A program made the translations under genes and the position numbers. Shown in pieces: positions 1-15,100 of a stretch of DNA of 64,000 nt. Location of the stretch: contig NZ_MASU01000005.1 in NCBI RefSeq assembly GCF_003202235.1, forward strand, positions 1,674,001-1,738,000, read 5' to 3'. Numbering within the stretch: the stretch's first letter is position 1; the number at the start of each line of letters is the position of its first letter. The notes under the pieces are model-generated. The model was not told the DNA's origin. It made no database searches and saw nothing but the letters and a program-made list of their open reading frames with translations. The DNA comes from Prauserella flavalba (GTDB lineage Bacteria; Actinomycetota; Actinomycetes; Mycobacteriales; Pseudonocardiaceae).

Positions 1-1044
1 CGCGATGCCCGCGATCTGCAGCTTCAGCTCGCGCTGATCGGACCAGAACCACGGCACGGGTGTCCGCGGCGGCTCGGCCCCGGCGAGGGCCGCCGCGGCG
101 GCCCTCGCCTGATCGTTCGCGTTCTGCACGGACTCGACGGCGATCAGCTCACCCGGCAGGTGCGGGTGGGGCCGCACCGTGCAGTCCCCGACCGCCCACA
201 CCCCGGGGTGGCTGGTCCGGCAGGCGGCGTCGACGACGATGCCGCGCCGCACGTCGAGCCCCAGCTTCTCGGCCAGTGTGGTCTCCGGTACCGCCCCGAT
301 CCCCACCAGCACGAGATCAGCGGGCAGCAGCCGCCCGTCGGCCAGGCGAACGTCCTGGACGCGGTGACCGTCGCCGACGAGCTCGCGGACGTCGGCGGCG
401 AGTTCGAACTCCACGCCCCACTCGCGATGCCGCCCGGCCAGGAACTCCGGCAGCGGAGCGGCGCTGACCCGGCTCAGCAGGCGGTCCTCGCGTTCGACCA
501 CCGTGGTCGCCAGACCGCGCGCGCTGGCGAGCGCGGCGGCTTCCAGGCCGATGTACCCGCCACCGACGATCACGACCCGGCCCGCCGTGGCCAGCCGGTC
601 GCGCAGGCGCTCCGCGTCGTCGACGCCGCGCAGGACGCACACGCCGTCCAGGTCACCGCCGTCGGCCGGGAGCGGACGCGGCCGCGCACCGGTCGCCAGG
701 ACGAGCCGGTCGAACTCGACGGTGTCCCCGCCCTCGCACATCGCCGTCCCCGCGCCGGAGCCGTCCACCTCGACGTCCGTCACCCGCCGGCCGGGACGCA
801 CGTCGATGCCGGCGTCGCGGAAGAACTCCGGGGTGCGCAGGGCCAGGTCGGCGTGGACCGCCTTGCCGTCGAGAAACGCCTTGGACAGCGGGGGCCGCTG
901 GTAGGGCTGGTGCGGCTCGTCGCCACAGAGCACGATCGGCCGGTCGTAGCCGAGTTCGCGCAACGTGGTCGCGACGCGGACGCCGGCCTCGCCGGCTCCG
1001 ACGACGAGCACACCGGCTCGCCCGCGGGCACGCTCGCTCATCAT
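1..1044 (-). CDS. Ferredoxin reductase, FAD/NAD(P)H-dependent (partial, C-terminus outside window)
   Basis: Flavoprotein of the rhodocoxin/putidaredoxin reductase type. It should pass electrons from NAD(P)H to the ferredoxin encoded just upstream and so to the Rieske oxygenase of this operon. The N-terminus shows the FAD dinucleotide-binding motif (VVGAGEAG, about residues 13-20). A second nucleotide-binding motif (VIVGGGYIGLE) lies near residue 150 and the FAD-closing motif (WAVGDC) follows. The visible end (WFWSDQRELKLQ) is typical of the reductase C-terminal domain. 348 codons are present and about 50 are missing. Two tandem ATGs are possible (1044 or 1041); the first overlaps the ferredoxin stop, so translation is probably coupled. 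Family assignment is firm; the partner is inferred from position. Confidence 0.9.
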   Translation of the reverse strand, partial: MMSERARGRAGVLVVGAGEAGVRVATTLRELGYDRPIVLCGDEPHQPYQRPPLSKAFLDGKAVHADLALRTPEFFRDAGIDVRPGRRVTDVEVDGSGAGTAMCEGGDTVEFDRLVLATGARPRPLPADGGDLDGVCVLRGVDDAERLRDRLATAGRVVIVGGGYIGLEAAALASARGLATTVVEREDRLLSRVSAAPLPEFLAGRHREWGVEFELAADVRELVGDGHRVQDVRLADGRLLPADLVLVGIGAVPETTLAEKLGLDVRRGIVVDAACRTSHPGVWAVGDCTVRPHPHLPGELIAVESVQNANDQARAAAAALAGAEPPRTPVPWFWSDQRELKLQIAGIA

Positions 1045-1361
1045 TGCTCCGGCGCCACGGTCACCTCGATGCCGTCCAGCTCGTCCGTCATCGGGATCTG
1101 GCAGGACAGCCTGCTGTTGGCCGTACGCTCGGCGGCCGCGTCGTCGAGCATCTCGTCCTCGAACTCTCCGACCTCGCCGGTCAGTGGCAGGTAGTCGTCG
1201 GCGACGTAGACGTGACAGGTCGCGCAGGCCATCGCGCCGCCGCACTCGGCGACGATCCCGGGGACTCCCGACCTGGTCGCCGTCTCCATGATCGAAGCGC
1301 CGGTGCGGGCCTCGACGATCTGCTGGGAACCATCGGCACGGTTGAACACGATCTTGGGCAT
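1041..1361 (-). CDS. [2Fe-2S] ferredoxin, adrenodoxin/putidaredoxin type
   Basis: A 106-aa soluble one-electron carrier. Cluster ligands are visible as C40-x5-C46-x2-C49 (within ECGGAMACATC) and C87 (LSCQIP), the spacing of adrenodoxin/putidaredoxin-type ferredoxins rather than plant type. It sits between the glutamine-synthetase-like gene and the reductase, and its stop overlaps the reductase start. Characterised aniline dioxygenase systems use one fused ferredoxin-reductase (TdnB/AtdA5), so a separate ferredoxin here is a difference in electron-chain architecture. The most likely role is reduction of the Rieske centre of the oxygenase encoded at 4436-5764. Confidence 0.93.
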   Translation of the reverse strand: MPKIVFNRADGSQQIVEARTGASIMETATRSGVPGIVAECGGAMACATCHVYVADDYLPLTGEVGEFEDEMLDDAAAERTANSRLSCQIPMTDELDGIEVTVAPEQ

Positions 1362-1384
1362 GGGCAGGTCTCTTCGGTCGGGGC

Positions 1385-2878
1385 TCAGAACAGCTCGAAG
1401 TACTCGCGGTGCTCCCAGTCGGTCACCCCGTTGACGTAGGTGTCCTGATCGGGGTGGTCGGCGACCCAGGCTTCGTAGCGGGAGATCTCGCTGCGCTTCA
1501 TCGTCACCAGGTAGTCCACGAAGGTGTCGCCGAACTGCTTGCGGAAGAACTCGTCGGCGTGCAGGACGTCGACCGCGTCGGCGAGCGTGGTCGGCAGGTG
1601 CGGCACCTCGGCCGCGTACGGGTCCTCGCTGAGCGGTCCCGGCGAGGTCTCGTTGAGGATGCCGTCCAGCCCGGCCACGGCCTGGGAGGCGATGTAGAGG
1701 TACGGGTTCGCGGCGGCCTCGCCGACCCGGTTCTCCACGTGGGAGGCCTTGTCCCCGGGCGCGCTGATCACGCGCATCATGGCCGCGCGGTTGTCGTAGG
1801 CCCACGTCAGCCGGTCCGGCGCCAGCGAGTACGGCCGCCGCCTGCGGTAGCCGTTGACCGTGGGCGTGGTGAACACCGACGCCGGCGCACCGTGCGCCAG
1901 CTGCCCTCCCACGTAGTGCTGCCCCAGCGGGGACAGGGCCTCGTCCTTGCCGGGCACCATCAGGTTCTCGCCGGTCGTCGCGTCGGCGATGGAGGTGTGC
2001 AGATGCCAGCCGCTGGCGTAGAAGCCCTCGATCGCAGGGGTGCACATGAACGACGCGAGGAACCCCCGGCGTTTCGAGATCTGCTTGACCGCCATCTTGA
2101 ACAGGATCGCCGCGTCGGCGGCCGCCATGCCCTCCAGGACGTCGAACGTCGTCTCGACCTGGCTCGGCGCCCACTCGTCGTCGAACGAGCGCAGCGGAAG
2201 TCCCATCGCCAGCAGCGCCTCCCGGATCGGGAGCAGGGCGTGGTCGATCTCGTCGAGGTGGTCGAGCAGCAGGTAGTTGTAGCCGCGGGCGACGGGGGCG
2301 ACGGTCGGTGGATCCGCCGGGCTGCCGGGCGCGCCGAGCGAGCCCTTGCCAAGCAGGTCGTCCACGACCCTGGTCAGATACCACTCCATCTCGATCCCGG
2401 ACACGAGGGTGTAGTTGTGCTCGGCCAGCCGGTTCAGTGCCTCGCGCAGGATCGTGCGGGGAGCGAGCGGAAACGGTGTCCCGCTGGTCAGGTACAGATC
2501 CGCGAACACCACCGCGGTCTTCGGCGCCCAGGGCAGGATCGTGAACGTCTGCGGGTCGGGCACCATCGTGACGTTCGGGCTGCCGCCGAGCCCCTCGATC
2601 TCGAAGCCCCCGTCGGCGCTGAAGGGGTTGAGCACGATCGCGTTCGCCGGGTCGAAGAAGAACGGCGCCATCGTGATCTCGTTGCCGGACTCCAGCGCAC
2701 TGAAGTACGCGGGTGCGGTCAGTGCCTTGCCGCGCATCAGGCCGTGCTGGTCGGGCCACACCAGGCGGATCATCTCGATACCGTGCTGTTCGACCAGTGA
2801 GCGGGAGCGCGCTGCCGCCTCGGCCTGTTCCGGGGTGTGGAGGCCGTGGCGTTCGATGAACTTGGCTTTGCTGGGCAT
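1385..2878 (-). CDS. Glutamine synthetase-like gamma-glutamyl-amine ligase (TdnQ/AtdA1-like)
   Basis: A 497-aa glutamine-synthetase-fold ligase. In aniline degradation the homologue (TdnQ/AtdA1/AdoQ) ligates glutamate to aniline with ATP, giving gamma-glutamylanilide. Visible GS elements are SGIEMEWYL (about residue 157), the SQVETTFD stretch, the active-site segment ending GWHLHTSI, and NRAAMMRV. The start at 2878 is chosen because AAAGGAG lies a few bases upstream; an in-frame extension to 2920 would overlap the preceding gene. It follows the amidotransferase gene by 17 bp. Other GS-like ligases act on isopropylamine or ethanolamine, so the amine is inferred from the linked Rieske oxygenase subunits. 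Confidence 0.88.
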   Translation of the reverse strand: MPSKAKFIERHGLHTPEQAEAAARSRSLVEQHGIEMIRLVWPDQHGLMRGKALTAPAYFSALESGNEITMAPFFFDPANAIVLNPFSADGGFEIEGLGGSPNVTMVPDPQTFTILPWAPKTAVVFADLYLTSGTPFPLAPRTILREALNRLAEHNYTLVSGIEMEWYLTRVVDDLLGKGSLGAPGSPADPPTVAPVARGYNYLLLDHLDEIDHALLPIREALLAMGLPLRSFDDEWAPSQVETTFDVLEGMAAADAAILFKMAVKQISKRRGFLASFMCTPAIEGFYASGWHLHTSIADATTGENLMVPGKDEALSPLGQHYVGGQLAHGAPASVFTTPTVNGYRRRRPYSLAPDRLTWAYDNRAAMMRVISAPGDKASHVENRVGEAAANPYLYIASQAVAGLDGILNETSPGPLSEDPYAAEVPHLPTTLADAVDVLHADEFFRKQFGDTFVDYLVTMKRSEISRYEAWVADHPDQDTYVNGVTDWEHREYFELF

Positions 2879-2895
2879 TGATCTCTCCTTTGAAA

Positions 2896-3567
2896 TCAGC
2901 GGGAAAGTCGGTCGAACCACCGGTTCAGCAGGGTTCGTGAGTCGTCGGCACCGTCGGCGAAGTACCGTTCGGCGTCGCGTCGCATGGTCGCCACGTCCAC
3001 GCCGAACCGCTCGAGTTTCGGGCCCTCGACGGCGAGGAGACCGCCGATGCCGCGCATGGTGATCTCGGGATGGAACTGCACCGCGAGGGCCGATCCTGCC
3101 GACCAGGCCTGCAGGTAGCGGTCCGATCTCGCGAGGATCTCGGCGTACTCGGGCGGGGTGGCGGAGTCGGAGTGGAACGAGAAGAACTCGCCGGCGACCT
3201 CCGTCGTGGCTCCCTCGGCGGGCTTGACCGTGATCATGCCCGCCTCCAGGCCGCTGTCCCCCGGCTCGGCCGAGCCGCCCAGGGCGCGCGCCAGCAGCTG
3301 GGAGCCGAGACAGATGGCGAGGACGGCAACGTCGTCGCCGACCGCGGCGGCGAGATAGCGTTGTTCCTCCCGCAGATAGGGATGATCGTCGTACGCGCTC
3401 TGCGGGCCGCCCATCGCCACCACCGCCCCGACCCGGTCGAGCGGGGGCAGCTCGTCGCCCCGGTAGGGCCGGACGAGTTGCAACGCGATGCCGCGCTCCC
3501 TGGCGAGCTCGGCCACAAGTCCCACGTCGGCGCGGTCGACATGGGTGATCACCGCGATCGGTTTCAT
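2896..3567 (-). CDS. Class I glutamine amidotransferase-like protein (TdnT/AtdA2-like)
   Basis: A 223-aa GATase1-fold protein. The nucleophile elbow AICLGSQ places the catalytic Cys at residue 86, and the His/Glu pair appears in AVQFHPE at residues 166 and 168, so the triad is intact. In aniline systems the homologue (TdnT/AtdA2) accompanies the gamma-glutamylanilide synthase, and hydrolysis of gamma-glutamylanilide has been assigned to it. It starts at an ATG overlapping the stop of the 91-aa gene by 4 bp and is followed after 17 bp by the ligase. Opposing ligase and hydrolase activities in one transcript would buffer toxic free arylamine (inference). Confidence 0.87.
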   Translation of the reverse strand: MKPIAVITHVDRADVGLVAELARERGIALQLVRPYRGDELPPLDRVGAVVAMGGPQSAYDDHPYLREEQRYLAAAVGDDVAVLAICLGSQLLARALGGSAEPGDSGLEAGMITVKPAEGATTEVAGEFFSFHSDSATPPEYAEILARSDRYLQAWSAGSALAVQFHPEITMRGIGGLLAVEGPKLERFGVDVATMRRDAERYFADGADDSRTLLNRWFDRLSR

Positions 3568-3839
3568 GGTCGCGGCCTCGGCTCGATCGTGGTGCCCCAC
3601 GGGTTCCAGTGGTCGATGTGGGCGAGCGCGCCCATCAACGCCGTGGCCTTGCCGCGATCGACCGCGACCCAGCTCTCGTCCGGACCGATCTGGTACGGGG
3701 CGAAGTCCCAGAAGGCGAGGTGCTTGACCTGCTCGACCAGCGGGGCGACGCTCGCCAGTTCGCGTTCCAGCCGTGCGGCCCTCCGGCGCAGCAGGGCGTT
3801 CTCCCGCCGGAGCGCGTCGAGTTCGTTGTCGTCGGCCAT
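3564..3839 (-). CDS. Small protein of unknown function, N-terminal coiled coil, in arylamine dioxygenase operon
   Basis: A 91-aa protein that I do not recognise. Residues 5-40 are rich in Leu, Arg and Glu with heptad spacing (ELDALRRENALLRRRAARLE) and should form a coiled coil. Residues 41-91 are aromatic and Pro-rich (FWDFAPYQIG, HIDHWNPWG), suggesting a small folded or partner-binding region. It lies between the small oxygenase subunit and the amidotransferase, with 4-bp ATGA overlap at its 3' end and a start directly abutting the upstream stop, so it is co-translated with the oxygenase. It has no signal peptide, cysteines or metal motif. An accessory, assembly or scaffold subunit of the oxygenase is possible but unproven. 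Confidence 0.8.
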   Translation of the reverse strand: MADDNELDALRRENALLRRRAARLERELASVAPLVEQVKHLAFWDFAPYQIGPDESWVAVDRGKATALMGALAHIDHWNPWGTTIEPRPRP

Positions 3840-4439
3840 TCAGAACACCAGCGTCAGATTCTCGTGGAGCTGGTCGGAGTCGAGCAGGTTCACCTGCTTC
3901 AGCCTGATGCGCCAGCCGTCCGAAGAGGACCGGAGCACGTGCCCGTACCACCCGGGGTAGGCCTTGGTGACACCGGCCCGGAACTCGTGCACGACGACGT
4001 TGGAGCGCACCAGCAGGTCCCCGGTCGAGGGATCGACCGTGGTCTCCACGTTCCCGATCACCCGCCGCGTCCTGGACGCGGGGATCTGGCAGAAGGCCAG
4101 CCCCGTCCGCAGCCAGTAGACCCGGTCGGTGAGCCGGCGCCGGTCGTCGAACGCGTGCGACACCTCGACGGTCGGTTCCCCGCCGCCCGGGGTCACCGGA
4201 ACCCAGTAGAGGCAGTCGTCGGTGAACAGTTCGAGCCAGTCGTTGAAGCGGCCCTCGTCGATCAGCCGCGCTTCCCTGGTGAGGAACGACGTCGCGCGGG
4301 ACAGTTCGTCCGATGTGGACTCCGGCCAGTCCTCCCTGAGCAGCTCGGACTGGCGGCTCAGCTCACGATAGTAGTCGTTGCCGATGTGGTACGACCACGA
4401 CGACGTGTCGGCGAACCGCGCGGGAATCTCGGTGCTCAT
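3840..4439 (-). CDS. Rieske non-heme iron oxygenase, small (beta) subunit
   Basis: A 199-aa cone-shaped small subunit of a ring-hydroxylating dioxygenase (SnoaL-like alpha+beta fold), equivalent to TdnA2/AtdA4. Typical beta-subunit stretches are visible: EARLIDEGRFNDWLELFTDDCLYWVPV near the N-terminus, RVYWLRTGLAFCQIPASRTRRVIGNVE, and the C-terminal WRIRLKQVNLLDSDQ. It has no redox cofactor; in the family it supports an alpha3beta3 hexamer. Its ATG overlaps the stop of the large-subunit gene by 4 bp, which gives stoichiometric coupling. Confidence 0.94.
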   Translation of the reverse strand: MSTEIPARFADTSSWSYHIGNDYYRELSRQSELLREDWPESTSDELSRATSFLTREARLIDEGRFNDWLELFTDDCLYWVPVTPGGGEPTVEVSHAFDDRRRLTDRVYWLRTGLAFCQIPASRTRRVIGNVETTVDPSTGDLLVRSNVVVHEFRAGVTKAYPGWYGHVLRSSSDGWRIRLKQVNLLDSDQLHENLTLVF

Positions 4440-5764
4440 CGGGCCCCTCCCGAGGTCATCAGGTCGAGCCAGGTCGCGTAGTAGTGCCGCATGTGCAGCT
4501 CGTCGGTCGCCGTGCTCGACACCACGCCGTCGGGGCCGACCTCCTGCCAGCCGGGGACGTTCAGCCCGCGGTTCGCGAAGACCCATTCCGCCTCCGGCGC
4601 CGCGAGACCACGCTGGACCTCCTCGAAGTTGGCCTGGTCGTCGGGCTCGCCGAACGCGGGAAAGTCCTCCTGCGTGCGCATCCTGATCGTGTTGATCTCC
4701 GGGGGAACACCGCCGATCGACGTGGCGTGCCAGCTCAGCTGCGTGCTGTCCACGGCGAGCGGTTCGACGACCTGGATCTGGTTTCCGATGATCAGCAGGT
4801 TCGGGAAGATGCTGAGATTGATCTGCGAGCCGACACAGAGGTCCAGGAGCCGGTCGGCGTCGGCACCGTACTCGGCGCGGATGTACTCCTCGACCCGCTC
4901 CCGGCCCGGCTGTGGCCGCTGGTTGGCCCAGAAGCTGCCAGGGCCGTCATAGTTGGGCCGCTGGTCGATCACGCTGTGCCCGTTGCCGAGCATGTAGGTG
5001 CGCATGGGGCCCTCGTCCGGCGACCGTCCGAAGTAGGCCATGTCCTTGCTTTCTCCCATGCGCGAGGCCATCTCCAGCAGCGACCGGTGGGAGAACGCCG
5101 GGTGGTAGCCGTCGCCGGCGTTGTCGTAGGCGAGCTTCCAGTTGCCGCGGTAGCCCATGCGGTGCACCCCGCTGCGAACGAGGACCTCGCCGCCGGGCGC
5201 ACGGTCGATCCAGTAGTCGAGCCATCCGGTCGCCGGGCCGAGCCAGTCCGTCAGGGCAGGTGCCGACTCGTTGAGGGTGGCGAAGACGAACCCGCGGTAG
5301 GACTCGACCCGGGAAACCTTGTGCAGGCCGAACTCCGTGCGGTCGAAATCCTCTCCGTAGCCCTGCGGCCACGGCGTCCCGACCAGCTCGCCGGTGTTGC
5401 GGAAGGTCCAGCCGTGGTACGGGCACTGGAAGCTCTTGGCGACACCGCTCTGCTCACGGCACAGCGTGGCTCCCCGGTGACTGCAGCGATTGAACACCGC
5501 GTGCAGCACGCCCGCCCGGTCGCGGGTCACGATCACCGGTCGTAGTCCCATTCGGACGGACAGGAACGAGTTCGGCTCCGGCAGCTGCGACTCGTGGGCC
5601 AGGTAGACCCACGATCGTCCGCCGAAGATCTTCACCATCTCCTCGGCGAAGATCTCCTGGTCGGTGTACAGGGTCCGGTGGACCCGGTCGTCGCGGACCA
5701 GGGCGTGGAGATCGGGCCGGACCGCGGCGGGCCGTCCGGCCACCGCGTCGTGCTGGAGGGTCAT
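4436..5764 (-). CDS. Rieske non-heme iron oxygenase, large (alpha) subunit, aniline dioxygenase-like
   Basis: A 442-aa catalytic subunit. The Rieske [2Fe-2S] ligands are C94-x-H96 (RCSHRG) and C114-x2-H117 (CPYHGW). The mononuclear iron site is D218-x2-H221-x4-H226 (GDGYHPAFSH), with the likely third ligand in the DDQANFEEVQRGL stretch. The family adds both atoms of O2 to an aromatic ring. Substrate is inferred from the linked gamma-glutamyl ligase and hydrolase, a pairing characteristic of aniline/arylamine dioxygenases. ATG 5764 is chosen because GGAGGT lies 4 bp upstream; the longer frame to 6040 lacks coding character. It is the first gene of the operon. Confidence 0.93.
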   Translation of the reverse strand: MTLQHDAVAGRPAAVRPDLHALVRDDRVHRTLYTDQEIFAEEMVKIFGGRSWVYLAHESQLPEPNSFLSVRMGLRPVIVTRDRAGVLHAVFNRCSHRGATLCREQSGVAKSFQCPYHGWTFRNTGELVGTPWPQGYGEDFDRTEFGLHKVSRVESYRGFVFATLNESAPALTDWLGPATGWLDYWIDRAPGGEVLVRSGVHRMGYRGNWKLAYDNAGDGYHPAFSHRSLLEMASRMGESKDMAYFGRSPDEGPMRTYMLGNGHSVIDQRPNYDGPGSFWANQRPQPGRERVEEYIRAEYGADADRLLDLCVGSQINLSIFPNLLIIGNQIQVVEPLAVDSTQLSWHATSIGGVPPEINTIRMRTQEDFPAFGEPDDQANFEEVQRGLAAPEAEWVFANRGLNVPGWQEVGPDGVVSSTATDELHMRHYYATWLDLMTSGGAR

Positions 5765-5894: not shown

Positions 5895-5969
5895 TGGGTA
5901 CTATCGTCGGCCGGTGCCGTCAGCGAGTAAAGGCAAGGATTCTGACATTTCGAAGCGTGGCCGGAGCCT

Positions 5970-6728
5970 TCAGCGCTGCGCGGGCGGCTCGATGCCGCAC
6001 AGGTCTCCAGCCAGTTCGAGATGACGCTGCATGGCGCCACGTGCCAGGATCGGGTCGCCGTCCACCACCGCCTGCCGGACGTCGTCGATGTGGGCGAGGA
6101 CGTCCGCCGGATCGAAGTCCTCGATATCCACGCCGCAATCCTGAAAGGCGATGATCGTGGAGCTCACGAATGCCACGATCATCGGATTGTGCGAACATTC
6201 GGCCAGTTTGCGGTGGAATGCGAGGTCGTAACGGAGAGCCGACTGCCGGGTCCACGAACCCGCGTCGCCGGCCGGGCGCAGCCGCTCCAGATCGGCCAGC
6301 GCCTCGAGATCCTCCGCGGTGCGCCGTTGTGCCGCGGTCCGCGCCGACAGCAGTTCGAGTTCGAACCGGACCTCGACGATGTCGCGGTAGCTCATCCGCT
6401 CGGCGCCGATCGCGAGTGTCATGTACTGACCCATTCCGAGCGCGAAATGCTCCATGGACAGGTCGGAAACGCAATGCCCGCCTTTGCGGCCCCTCGTCGC
6501 GATGATCACCCTGGCCTGCTTCAGCGTCCGCAGCGCCTCACGCACGGTCGGCCTGCTCACCCCGAAGTTCTCGGCCATCTCCTCTTCCGAGGGAAGGCGG
6601 GACCCCGGAAGCAGGCTGCCGTCCAGAATGGCCTCCTTGATCGCCGTCGCGACCTGTTGCGGAGCCGTTTGGACCTTCTTGAACAGCCGAGCGTCCACCT
6701 TGCCCACGAGCACTCCCGACTGGTTCAC
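5970..6728 (-). CDS. GntR-family transcriptional regulator, FadR subfamily
   Basis: A 252-aa regulator from GTG 6728, or about 245 aa if GTG 6707 with GGGAG 5 bp upstream is used. The N-terminal winged helix shows the GntR signature (LPSEEEMAENFGVSRPTVREALRTL, about residues 45-70). The C-terminal all-helical FCD domain has the metal-binding-type segment YDLAFHRKLAECSHNPMI followed by HLELAGDL near the end. FCD domains bind carboxylic acids or aromatic effectors. It lies directly upstream of the dioxygenase operon in the same orientation, with a 205-bp gap holding two dyads, so it is the probable local regulator. Confidence 0.9.
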   Translation of the reverse strand: MNQSGVLVGKVDARLFKKVQTAPQQVATAIKEAILDGSLLPGSRLPSEEEMAENFGVSRPTVREALRTLKQARVIIATRGRKGGHCVSDLSMEHFALGMGQYMTLAIGAERMSYRDIVEVRFELELLSARTAAQRRTAEDLEALADLERLRPAGDAGSWTRQSALRYDLAFHRKLAECSHNPMIVAFVSSTIIAFQDCGVDIEDFDPADVLAHIDDVRQAVVDGDPILARGAMQRHLELAGDLCGIEPPAQR

Positions 6729-13891: not shown

Positions 13892-15100
13892 TCACGCGTA
13901 GATGACCCGGGTGGTTCCGGTGGCGGCGGTCCAGATGATCGCACCGCCCTGGAAGTCGCTCCGCCGGCCGCCGCTGACCGCGTACTCGTCAGAGACCGGG
14001 TAGCCCAGCCTGCTGCGCTCCCAGCCCAGTGACGCCCACCTGGTCAGGATCGCGCCATGCACCTCGTGCGCGCCCGTGGACGGGCTCCAGTAGGCCGAGC
14101 CGCCCTGGAACTGGCCGTACCGGCCGATGCCGTCGGGGCACCGGCGCTCGTCGGTGCGAGGGAATCCGAGGAAGCCGTTCACCGTGCCCAGCCCGGCGTA
14201 CTTGCTCATGATCGCCCCGTGCACCTCCCGGGCGCCGATGGCGCTGTTCCAGTAGATCCGGCCGTGCTGGAACCACTGCACCGCACCGGCACCGCCCGCC
14301 GTTGCCGAGGTCTCCCCCGTCCTCGGCGCGCCGAGCACCGAGTTGCGGGCTCCGAGCGCGGCGTATTTGGCACCGATCGCCCCGCGCGTCACCGAGCGAT
14401 ACGGGCTGGTGAAACCGTAGCCCATGCCGCGCAGCGTGGAGATGATCTGCGGCAGCGCGGCCGTGTCGGTCGACTCGTTGCTCAGGTGCATGACGATCGT
14501 CGCACCGGGCACCGTGTACTGGCGCACGCGGGACAGGATCGTCGCCGTACTCGCGCCCTGGTAGCCGGTCGTGTCGAACGTCCAGTCGTAGCTGAGGTAG
14601 TAGCCGCGCAGGGCCAGGTCCCGGTTCACGCCGGCGTTCAGGTAGCCGTCCCGGTAGGGCGCGCGGAACCACCCTGCCGACGTGTACCCGATGCGGTTGT
14701 ACACCGCCTCGGCCCTGTCGAGCTGCGACCAGCGCTGCGCCTGCGTCAGATCGGTGAAATACGGGTGGTCGTAACTGTGGTTGATCAGCTTGTGGCCCGC
14801 GGCCAGCAGTTGCCGGGCCCGGTCGGGATACCGGTCTACGTACCGGCCGGTCAGCCCGAACCCCGCAGTGATCCCGTTGTCCCGCAGGATCCGCAACACC
14901 GTCGCCGGGTCACCCGGGCTCCACCAGTCCGCGTCGAAGGTCAGCGTCACCACTTTCGTGCTGGTGTCGTAGGCCCGCGTGAACACCCTCGCCGACGCGG
15001 GTGCCACGTCGTTGGCCGCCGCGCCGGGAGCCAGAGTGCCGACGAGCAACGCCACTGCCGCGAGCACACCGCCGGCTCCCCAGATCCGCTGTCGCGCCAT
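13892..15100 (-). CDS. Secreted polysaccharide deacetylase with C-terminal LGFP repeats
   Basis: A 402-aa exported protein. A signal peptide spans residues 1-30 (basic MARQR, hydrophobic core, cleavage near PGAAA-ND). The NodB-type carbohydrate esterase 4 domain covers about 45-225: metal ligands lie in LTFDADW and NHSYDHPYF, the catalytic-loop arginine in WFRAPYRDG, and the late motif in VMHLS. Three LGFP repeats follow (AIGAKYAALGARNSVLGAP, AIMSKYAGLGTVNGFLGFP, AILTRWASLGWERSRLGYP), which in actinomycetes anchor proteins to the cell wall. ATG 15100 is chosen because GGAAGGTGGA lies upstream. Likely substrate is N-acetylated wall glycan. Confidence 0.92.
   Translation of the reverse strand: MARQRIWGAGGVLAAVALLVGTLAPGAAANDVAPASARVFTRAYDTSTKVVTLTFDADWWSPGDPATVLRILRDNGITAGFGLTGRYVDRYPDRARQLLAAGHKLINHSYDHPYFTDLTQAQRWSQLDRAEAVYNRIGYTSAGWFRAPYRDGYLNAGVNRDLALRGYYLSYDWTFDTTGYQGASTATILSRVRQYTVPGATIVMHLSNESTDTAALPQIISTLRGMGYGFTSPYRSVTRGAIGAKYAALGARNSVLGAPRTGETSATAGGAGAVQWFQHGRIYWNSAIGAREVHGAIMSKYAGLGTVNGFLGFPRTDERRCPDGIGRYGQFQGGSAYWSPSTGAHEVHGAILTRWASLGWERSRLGYPVSDEYAVSGGRRSDFQGGAIIWTAATGTTRVIYA

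Follow-up and report, generated by a model that had tools for sequence, protein, structure and literature searches.

Does the gene set at the start of this stretch of Prauserella flavalba DNA form a system of its own kind or does it belong to a known family, and which amine does it act on? The stretch, called the window below, is 64,000 nucleotides long (contig NZ_MASU01000005.1, positions 1,674,001 to 1,738,000) and comes from a host genome of 8.09 Mb. The initial annotation described its left end as a variant, independently assembled aniline dioxygenase operon. By its gene content, homology, conservation and selection, the operon very probably encodes an arylamine gamma-glutamylation and dioxygenation system of the known actinobacterial aniline-dioxygenase (cad) type, from which its activities and its amine can be proposed; the substrate would be aniline or a substituted aniline. 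The new element is a small conserved protein of 91 residues, and the rest is of known type.

The operon and its enzymes

All seven genes were found on the minus strand where the initial annotation had placed them. They run in the order alpha subunit, beta subunit, 91-residue protein, amidotransferase, glutamine-synthetase-like ligase, [2Fe-2S] ferredoxin and flavoprotein reductase, and are listed here by position, together with the regulator gene next to them.

5970..6728, minus strand: GntR/FCD-family regulator (GntR E 8.8e-19, FCD E 1.7e-18)
4436..5764, minus strand: Rieske dioxygenase alpha subunit (TdnA1/CadA1-like), 442 residues; Rieske and Ring_hydroxyl_A domains
3840..4439, minus strand: Rieske dioxygenase beta subunit, 199 residues; Ring_hydroxyl_B, E 1.4e-28
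3564..3839, minus strand: 91-residue protein (ORF91); long N-terminal helix predicted, W-rich C-terminal motif; seen by alignment and co-occurrence
2896..3567, minus strand: class I glutamine amidotransferase-like hydrolase (TdnT/CadT-like), 223 residues; GATase E 7e-12
1385..2878, minus strand: glutamine-synthetase-like, probable arylamine gamma-glutamyl ligase (TdnQ/CadQ/NpaA1-like), 497 residues; solved-structure match, tree and residues
1041..1361, minus strand: putidaredoxin-type [2Fe-2S] ferredoxin, 106 residues; cysteines and solved relatives
1..1044, minus strand: ferredoxin reductase dependent on flavin adenine dinucleotide (FAD), putidaredoxin-reductase type, cut by the left window edge; solved relatives

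The genes are tightly packed, as had been claimed (overlapping or within 24 bp), and the largest gap is 23 bp, between ligase and ferredoxin. The alpha and beta genes overlap by 4 bp, as do the 91-residue and amidotransferase genes; the 91-residue gene starts at the base directly after the beta stop, 17 bp separate amidotransferase and ligase, and the reductase gene overlaps the ferredoxin stop. The reductase gene is whole in the genome, reaching 219 bases past the left window edge (L009:13782-15041), and encodes 419 residues from its second ATG without an internal stop. The ratio of non-synonymous to synonymous substitution rates (dN/dS), calculated against four relatives (L018, L143, L036 and L019), is 0.06–0.35 for the seven genes, which implies that all of them, the 91-residue gene included, are under purifying selection. 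A second genome of the genus, Prauserella endophytica (L018), has the same layout and an alpha subunit that is 97% identical.

By analogy with NpaA1, TdnQ and AtdA1, the ligase would use ATP to join L-glutamate to the amine and give a gamma-glutamyl-anilide. Electrons from NADH would enter at the FAD reductase, and the [2Fe-2S] ferredoxin would hand them on to the alpha/beta oxygenase with its Rieske cluster and mononuclear iron. The oxygenase would dioxygenate the ring at the nitrogen-bearing carbon and its neighbour. The product of this step would collapse to a catechol, with release of the gamma-glutamyl amide. Surplus gamma-glutamyl-anilide, reported to be cytotoxic, would be removed by the amidotransferase acting as a relief valve, and the catechol would then be cleaved by a CatA-type enzyme encoded elsewhere in the genome. 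The parts given to ligase, oxygenase and amidotransferase are those described for the AtdA1/TdnQ systems in passages of two papers (PMC4539516; PMC11335346).

The ligase carries much of the argument. Among solved structures its best match is 8wwu (E 1.6e-179, 601 bits), confirmed as the NpaA1 entry in the paper on that structure, and the next chain follows at E 1.4e-41 and 146 bits. A quick tree was built from 82 ligases; it held no true glutamine synthetases, and the short rows L058, L068, L090 and L094 were dropped from it. In this tree the sister of the actinobacterial clade is formed by NpaA1 with the Delftia plasmid and Mesorhizobium ligases, and the joint group has a Shimodaira–Hasegawa-like approximate likelihood ratio (SH-aLRT) support of 97. 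The meaning of single residues is taken from passages of the NpaA1 structure study (PMC11335346). The aromatic tunnel residues F75, F86 and W235 of NpaA1 correspond to F75, F86 and W236 in the window ligase, whose loop 69-75 reads TMAPFFF; V201 is replaced by Y202, and AtdA1 also has a tyrosine there. The acidic pair E232/E234, which binds the amine in NpaA1, corresponds to D233/E235, so both positions are acidic with one aspartate. Judged from its sequence, the protein most likely belongs with the arylamine gamma-glutamyl ligases NpaA1, AtdA1 and TdnQ. The likeness to TdnQ/TdnT/TdnA1/TdnA2 seen in the initial annotation is borne out, with the ligase nearest to NpaA1, and identities to Delftia pNB8c of 60% for the ligase and 53% for alpha.

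The oxygenase component is complete, with a beta subunit and with intact Rieske and mononuclear iron motifs in alpha (CxH-x17-CxxH at 94, NxxDxxHx4H at 215); the amidotransferase motifs are intact as well (ICLGSQ at 85, HPE at 166). The roles of these motifs, and of the ferredoxin cysteines below, are presumably the usual ones. Alpha is 65–97% identical to its counterparts at 26 actinobacterial loci, 53% to the Delftia plasmid alphas and 33–37% to the longer of the host's other Rieske alphas. Its identity to ligase-linked plasmid alphas is 48–78%, as against 37% to a plasmid alpha annotated antA, so that on identity it does not fall among unrelated carboxylate-type Rieske oxygenases, the placement that would have spoken against the initial annotation. 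Of the named NCBIfam models, the benzoate large subunit scores best with 234 bits (cut-off 781), followed by the anthranilate large subunit with 208 bits (cut-off 672), and neither the identities nor these scores favour an enzyme of the benzoate or anthranilate type. A quick tree of 91 alphas (without L082) places the window within a starred clade of 26 rows, which is a different set from the 26 counted loci and includes catA-bearing loci, on plasmids and on chromosomes, of Rhodococcus gordoniae, Dietzia, Corynebacterium, Arthrobacter, Cryobacterium, Nocardioides and Knoellia. The Delftia, NpaA and Mesorhizobium alphas branch apart from the actinobacterial clade at an open fork, in a tree that did not contain the sequences of strains DH-2 and AN-22. 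The outgroup, three other host Rieske alphas, was our own choice, and the tree is no test of a carboxylate-type grouping; with long branches near the base, its deep order is unsure. A fragment of about 80 residues on host contig C7 (G000:C7:845-1084, L115) is alpha-like, with 69–71% identity and an in-frame stop, and none of the other five operon proteins tested was found beside it in the 2.6 kb covered.

The electron supply differs from that of the proteobacterial Tdn/Atd systems, whose hallmark is the fused FAD/[2Fe-2S] reductase TdnB. A tblastn search with Delftia TdnB (E 1e-3), which covered the window and the adjoining 14 kb on its left side, gave no match, in agreement with the claim that TdnB is replaced by two separate proteins. 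The ferredoxin has its cysteines at exactly C40, C46, C49 and C87, and among solved structures it comes closest to terpredoxin and putidaredoxin, behind two chains named just ferredoxin. The reductase in turn comes closest to putidaredoxin reductases, behind a chain named after its cofactor and a putative rubredoxin reductase. Both the cysteines and the labels putidaredoxin-type ferredoxin and flavoprotein reductase given earlier hold.

The layout among relatives and known systems

Of the 487 alpha relatives found in a genome scan the best 80 were kept; 26 of these loci are actinobacterial with alpha at least 65% identical (L018-L042 and L087). The 91-residue gene is present in all 26, the ligase in 25 and the amidotransferase in 24. 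The sequence of L032 stops within the cluster, and L024 lacks the amidotransferase and has its ligase upstream. In 18 of the 26 all seven genes follow one another on one strand in the window order. A full-length ferredoxin and reductase of the same kind accompany 19. The other seven consist of L020 and L021 with remnants, the truncated L032, L037 with a different pair, and L038, L041 and L042 where none was seen. A TdnB relative stood beside none of the 26 loci; L033 has one at 27% identity, farther off and on the opposite strand. The co-occurrence that the initial annotation had proposed to count is thus 26/26 for the 91-residue gene and 19/26 for the redox pair, and together with the precedent of strain DH-2 described below it makes the layout the usual form among actinobacterial relatives and not a variant. 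Nor was the system independently assembled, an idea that we reject since the gene order is conserved in the 18 loci and on three plasmids.

Two departures in the redox genes stand out. In L037, from Rhodococcus aetherivorans, the pair looks by eye to be swapped for a thioredoxin-reductase-like ferredoxin-NADP reductase (FNR) and a bacterial cysteine-rich ferredoxin (L037:9178-10583), which looks from its sequence like a third type of electron supply for the same oxygenase family. In the Pseudonocardia loci L020 and L021 only remnants of ferredoxin and reductase stand behind a full-length ligase, at about 14415-14630, as if the pair had been removed by deletion.

Among the 26 loci, catA was found in seven, with an additional weak partial match in L025, and not in the other 19 as fetched; it is a feature of DH-2 that we do not take as defining. 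A trio of genes whose names were read from the sequence, M24-HyuB-HyuA (the first of them M24-peptidase-like), lies near 11 of them (L019, L022, L024, L025, L026, L028, L030, L033, L037, L040 and L087) and also near L043, which hints at a step that opens a lactam or an amide and may feed the arylamine enzyme or recycle glutamate. Because contig ends truncate several loci, both counts are lower bounds.

The closest described precedent is Rhodococcus sp. DH-2. Passages of its paper list cadA1, cadA, cadB1 (ferredoxin), cadB2 (reductase), cadQ, cadT and catA, report catechol and cis,cis-muconate from aniline, and state that strain AN-22 has a highly similar cluster (PMC11596033). Compared by this description, DH-2 shares with the window the large and small oxygenase subunits, a separate [2Fe-2S] ferredoxin and reductase, the glutamine-synthetase-like ligase and the glutamine-amidotransferase-like enzyme; it differs in having catA inside the cluster, where the window operon has none nearby, and those passages do not mention a 91-residue gene. 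The three actinobacterial plasmids, Dietzia kunjamensis pDK2035-69, Corynebacterium occultum pCOCCU and Rhodococcus gordoniae pDND3A, carry the same set in the same order, including the 91-residue gene, with alpha and ligase 73–79% identical. Unlike the window operon these clusters are plasmid-borne with catA nearby, in all three cases, and their neighbouring regulators are of the IclR or MurR/RpiR type; Corynebacterium has a GntR-type gene downstream. On the R. gordoniae plasmid (L012:11964-13739) the 91-residue gene is unannotated, the amidotransferase is interrupted, with an IS3-family transposase gene in its region, and a second amidotransferase gene lies further down; Corynebacterium also has a second one.

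The Delftia pNB8c cluster (TdnQ/T/A1/A2/B type) and the npaA cluster of Pseudomonas JS3066 are more distant. Their ligases are 60% and 54% and their alphas 53% and 49% identical, and amidotransferase and beta are present, but the ligase comes first, there is one fused reductase and no ferredoxin, and no 91-residue gene was found in either. Passages of PMC2358900 likewise give an FAD/[2Fe-2S] reductase and the entry 'None' for ferredoxin in the aniline dioxygenases of three proteobacteria. Most of the proteobacterial and Nostoc loci (L045-L086, L088, L089 and L094-L097) have a ligase relative of about 42–48% identity with Rieske alpha and beta; no full ligase was seen in L068, L094 and L097. 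In most of them no relative of TdnB, the ferredoxin or the 91-residue protein occurs in the stretch fetched, the exceptions being a TdnB relative (27%) in L079 and a ferredoxin (50%) in L085, both at a distance. This ligase-oxygenase set appears from the sequences to be widespread.

The skatole cluster of Rhodococcus (R. aetherivorans and R. ruber) has the published order skaCDZEFGHAIJKRLB (passages of PMC13101512). Through L037, which we match to it, it would share alpha, beta, the 91-residue protein, the amidotransferase and the ligase as members of the same families. L037 differs in what look like a multi-cysteine ferredoxin and a thioredoxin-reductase-like FNR and in the extra SkaA-like monooxygenase, M24 and hydantoinase-like genes. 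The ska cluster appears to be a sister system built on this core, with the match of letters to genes being our own.

The 91-residue protein

The gene inserted between beta and amidotransferase, which the initial annotation had pointed out as extra, is real: it lies at 3564-3839 and is under purifying selection, with a dN/dS of 0.18–0.34 against the four relatives. An alignment of 30 rows shows a tryptophan-rich C-terminal motif, WDF-x-PY...PDxSWxAVDR...ALAxxDHWxPW. AlphaFold, run on an alignment of 27 rows, predicts helices at 2-39 and 62-75 with a mean predicted local distance difference test score (pLDDT) of 79 and a predicted template modelling score (pTM) of 0.55; from residue 71 onward the pLDDT is 57–69. 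Foldseek gave no match to this model in the PDB, and there was no NCBIfam match at E 0.001 and no significant Pfam match (best E 0.21). Sequence matches to solved chains, the best at E 0.00073, were set aside, because those inspected, 60 out of 128 at E up to 10, mainly cover the N-terminal helix and look like coiled coils. Literature searches found no description of the protein as such.

Its occurrence follows alpha closely. Besides the 26 loci, only one of the other 54 has it, Alteribacillus L044 (E 2.5e-15), and it was not found in the actinobacterial loci of lower identity L043, L090, L091 and L093. Among 72,556 plasmid records it matches three, the same three that have alpha above 60%. 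In 390 genomes of the host family it was found in 13 (E 1e-5), exactly those with alpha at least 65% identical, and in each the two genes are about 0.6–0.7 kb apart, which leaves room for beta. Alpha itself was found at E up to 1e-130 in 15 family genomes; the two without the 91-residue gene have alphas of 54–55% and are G430, which is 59% complete, and G687, which is in 1250 contigs. A sample of 397 genomes from the order contains two with either gene, both of the host family, and each of these two carries both genes. The host is the sole carrier of the 91-residue gene among 396 genomes sampled from the phylum, and in the host genus two of four genomes have it. These surveys overlap one another and the genome scan.

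The gene order of the skatole cluster suggests that this protein is SkaZ; skaZ, skaE and skaH are not named singly in the main text of that paper (PMC13101512). We propose that it may be an accessory subunit for assembly of the oxygenase or for docking of its electron partner. It is also conceivable, though we hold it as a tentative idea, that it is an undescribed obligatory subunit of actinobacterial arylamine dioxygenases, with a helical N-terminal stalk and a tryptophan-rich C-terminal motif binding the oxygenase or the ligase. It might then enable the use of different redox partners or pass on the toxic gamma-glutamyl-anilide. The partners would perhaps be a putidaredoxin-type pair in most cases and, in the ska type, another combination of ferredoxin and FNR, which is a similarly speculative suggestion.

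Substrate, regulation and surroundings

Several observations weigh against an aniline-to-catechol operon. The host genome has five CatA relatives (53–57%), one of them, on C15, with an in-frame TGA, and none is near the operon; nothing CatA-like was found in the window or, for its closest relatives L018, L036 and L143, in the stretches fetched. Nostoc alphas of unknown function are 57% identical and, by alpha alone, as near as the Delftia alphas (53%). In the ligase, M81 of NpaA1 is I81 and E232 is D233. Position 81 sets the preference for naphthylamine or aniline according to passages of PMC11335346, and with these two replacements that preference cannot be read from the sequence. Relatives at 65–73% (L037, L038, L039, L041 and L042) include clusters with other accessory genes, such as the likely skatole cluster L037, and for that reason the substrate may be either aniline or a substituted aniline, in line with the statement in the initial annotation that the true amine is not known.

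One alternative keeps the same machinery and makes its natural substrate an ortho-substituted aniline from another pathway, for example a breakdown product of oxindole or skatole. L037 points this way: its alpha is 72% identical, and the 91-residue gene, amidotransferase and ligase stand in the published ska order, if our one-to-one naming is right, with a SkaA-like gene and M24-HyuB-HyuA, the trio found near the 11 loci. The window, however, lies in an alpha clade apart from L037, and nothing close to M24-HyuB-HyuA exists in the host, where the best HyuB reaches 35% and the best M24 30%. No SkaA match was found in the window, and the host's best, at 33–34%, are two adjacent stretches elsewhere on the contig (G000:C5:312066-314677; L155 and L156) with one stop inside each matched span. 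We regard such a substrate as possible, but as the weaker choice.

It is far more doubtful that the ligase glutamylates a non-aromatic amine of the polyamine, isopropylamine or methylamine type and that the Rieske enzyme oxidises the aliphatic gamma-glutamyl amide. The nearest named NCBIfam model is indeed gamma-glutamylputrescine synthetase (E 2.7e-65), but its score of 221 bits falls short of the 650 required. No other solved ligase comes nearly as close as NpaA1, all three aromatic residues of the tunnel are conserved, and catA accompanies 7/26 related loci and 3/3 plasmids. An operon that is decaying or idle is at least as improbable. Decay is seen in relatives, as the remnants in L020 and L021 and the transposase gene in the R. 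gordoniae amidotransferase region, and the host itself has the alpha-like fragment on C7; in the window all seven genes are open and under purifying selection, and P. endophytica has the same layout.

The GntR/FCD regulator gene lies directly upstream of the operon on the same strand and has an equivalent in the same place in L018 (96%), L143 (88%) and L036 (64%); this protein is the probable regulator. A search for its palindromic operator gave short repeats only, not clearly common to the relatives. Between regulator and alpha, a block TGTCA(G/A)AATCCTTGCCTTTACTC (5925-5947, minus strand) is kept in the window, L018 and L143, in the last case although the gap has partly diverged, and is a possible promoter or operator candidate. 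To the left of the window (L009:4870-13757) the plus strand carries, by names read from the sequence, an HMG-CoA (3-hydroxy-3-methylglutaryl-coenzyme A) reductase-like gene followed by one for a GAF-type regulator. Next come, on the minus strand, two genes resembling hydantoinases A and B and one that is CoA-transferase-like. The hydantoinase-like pair (L009:6139-10377) was considered as the M24-HyuB-HyuA module of the relatives and dismissed, with HyuB at 32–35%, HyuA at 35% and no close M24.

Passages of the NpaA1 study report that production in E. coli gives NpaA1 and AtdA1 of much lower activity than production in the native hosts (PMC11335346). This is a reason to look for overlooked partners, and no evidence for the 91-residue protein, because the npaA cluster showed no such gene. 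Among the actinobacterial relatives, which span many genera and include plasmids, aniline-type dioxygenases usually have their ferredoxin and reductase as separate proteins, and the 91-residue protein is worth including when these enzymes are rebuilt in a laboratory host.

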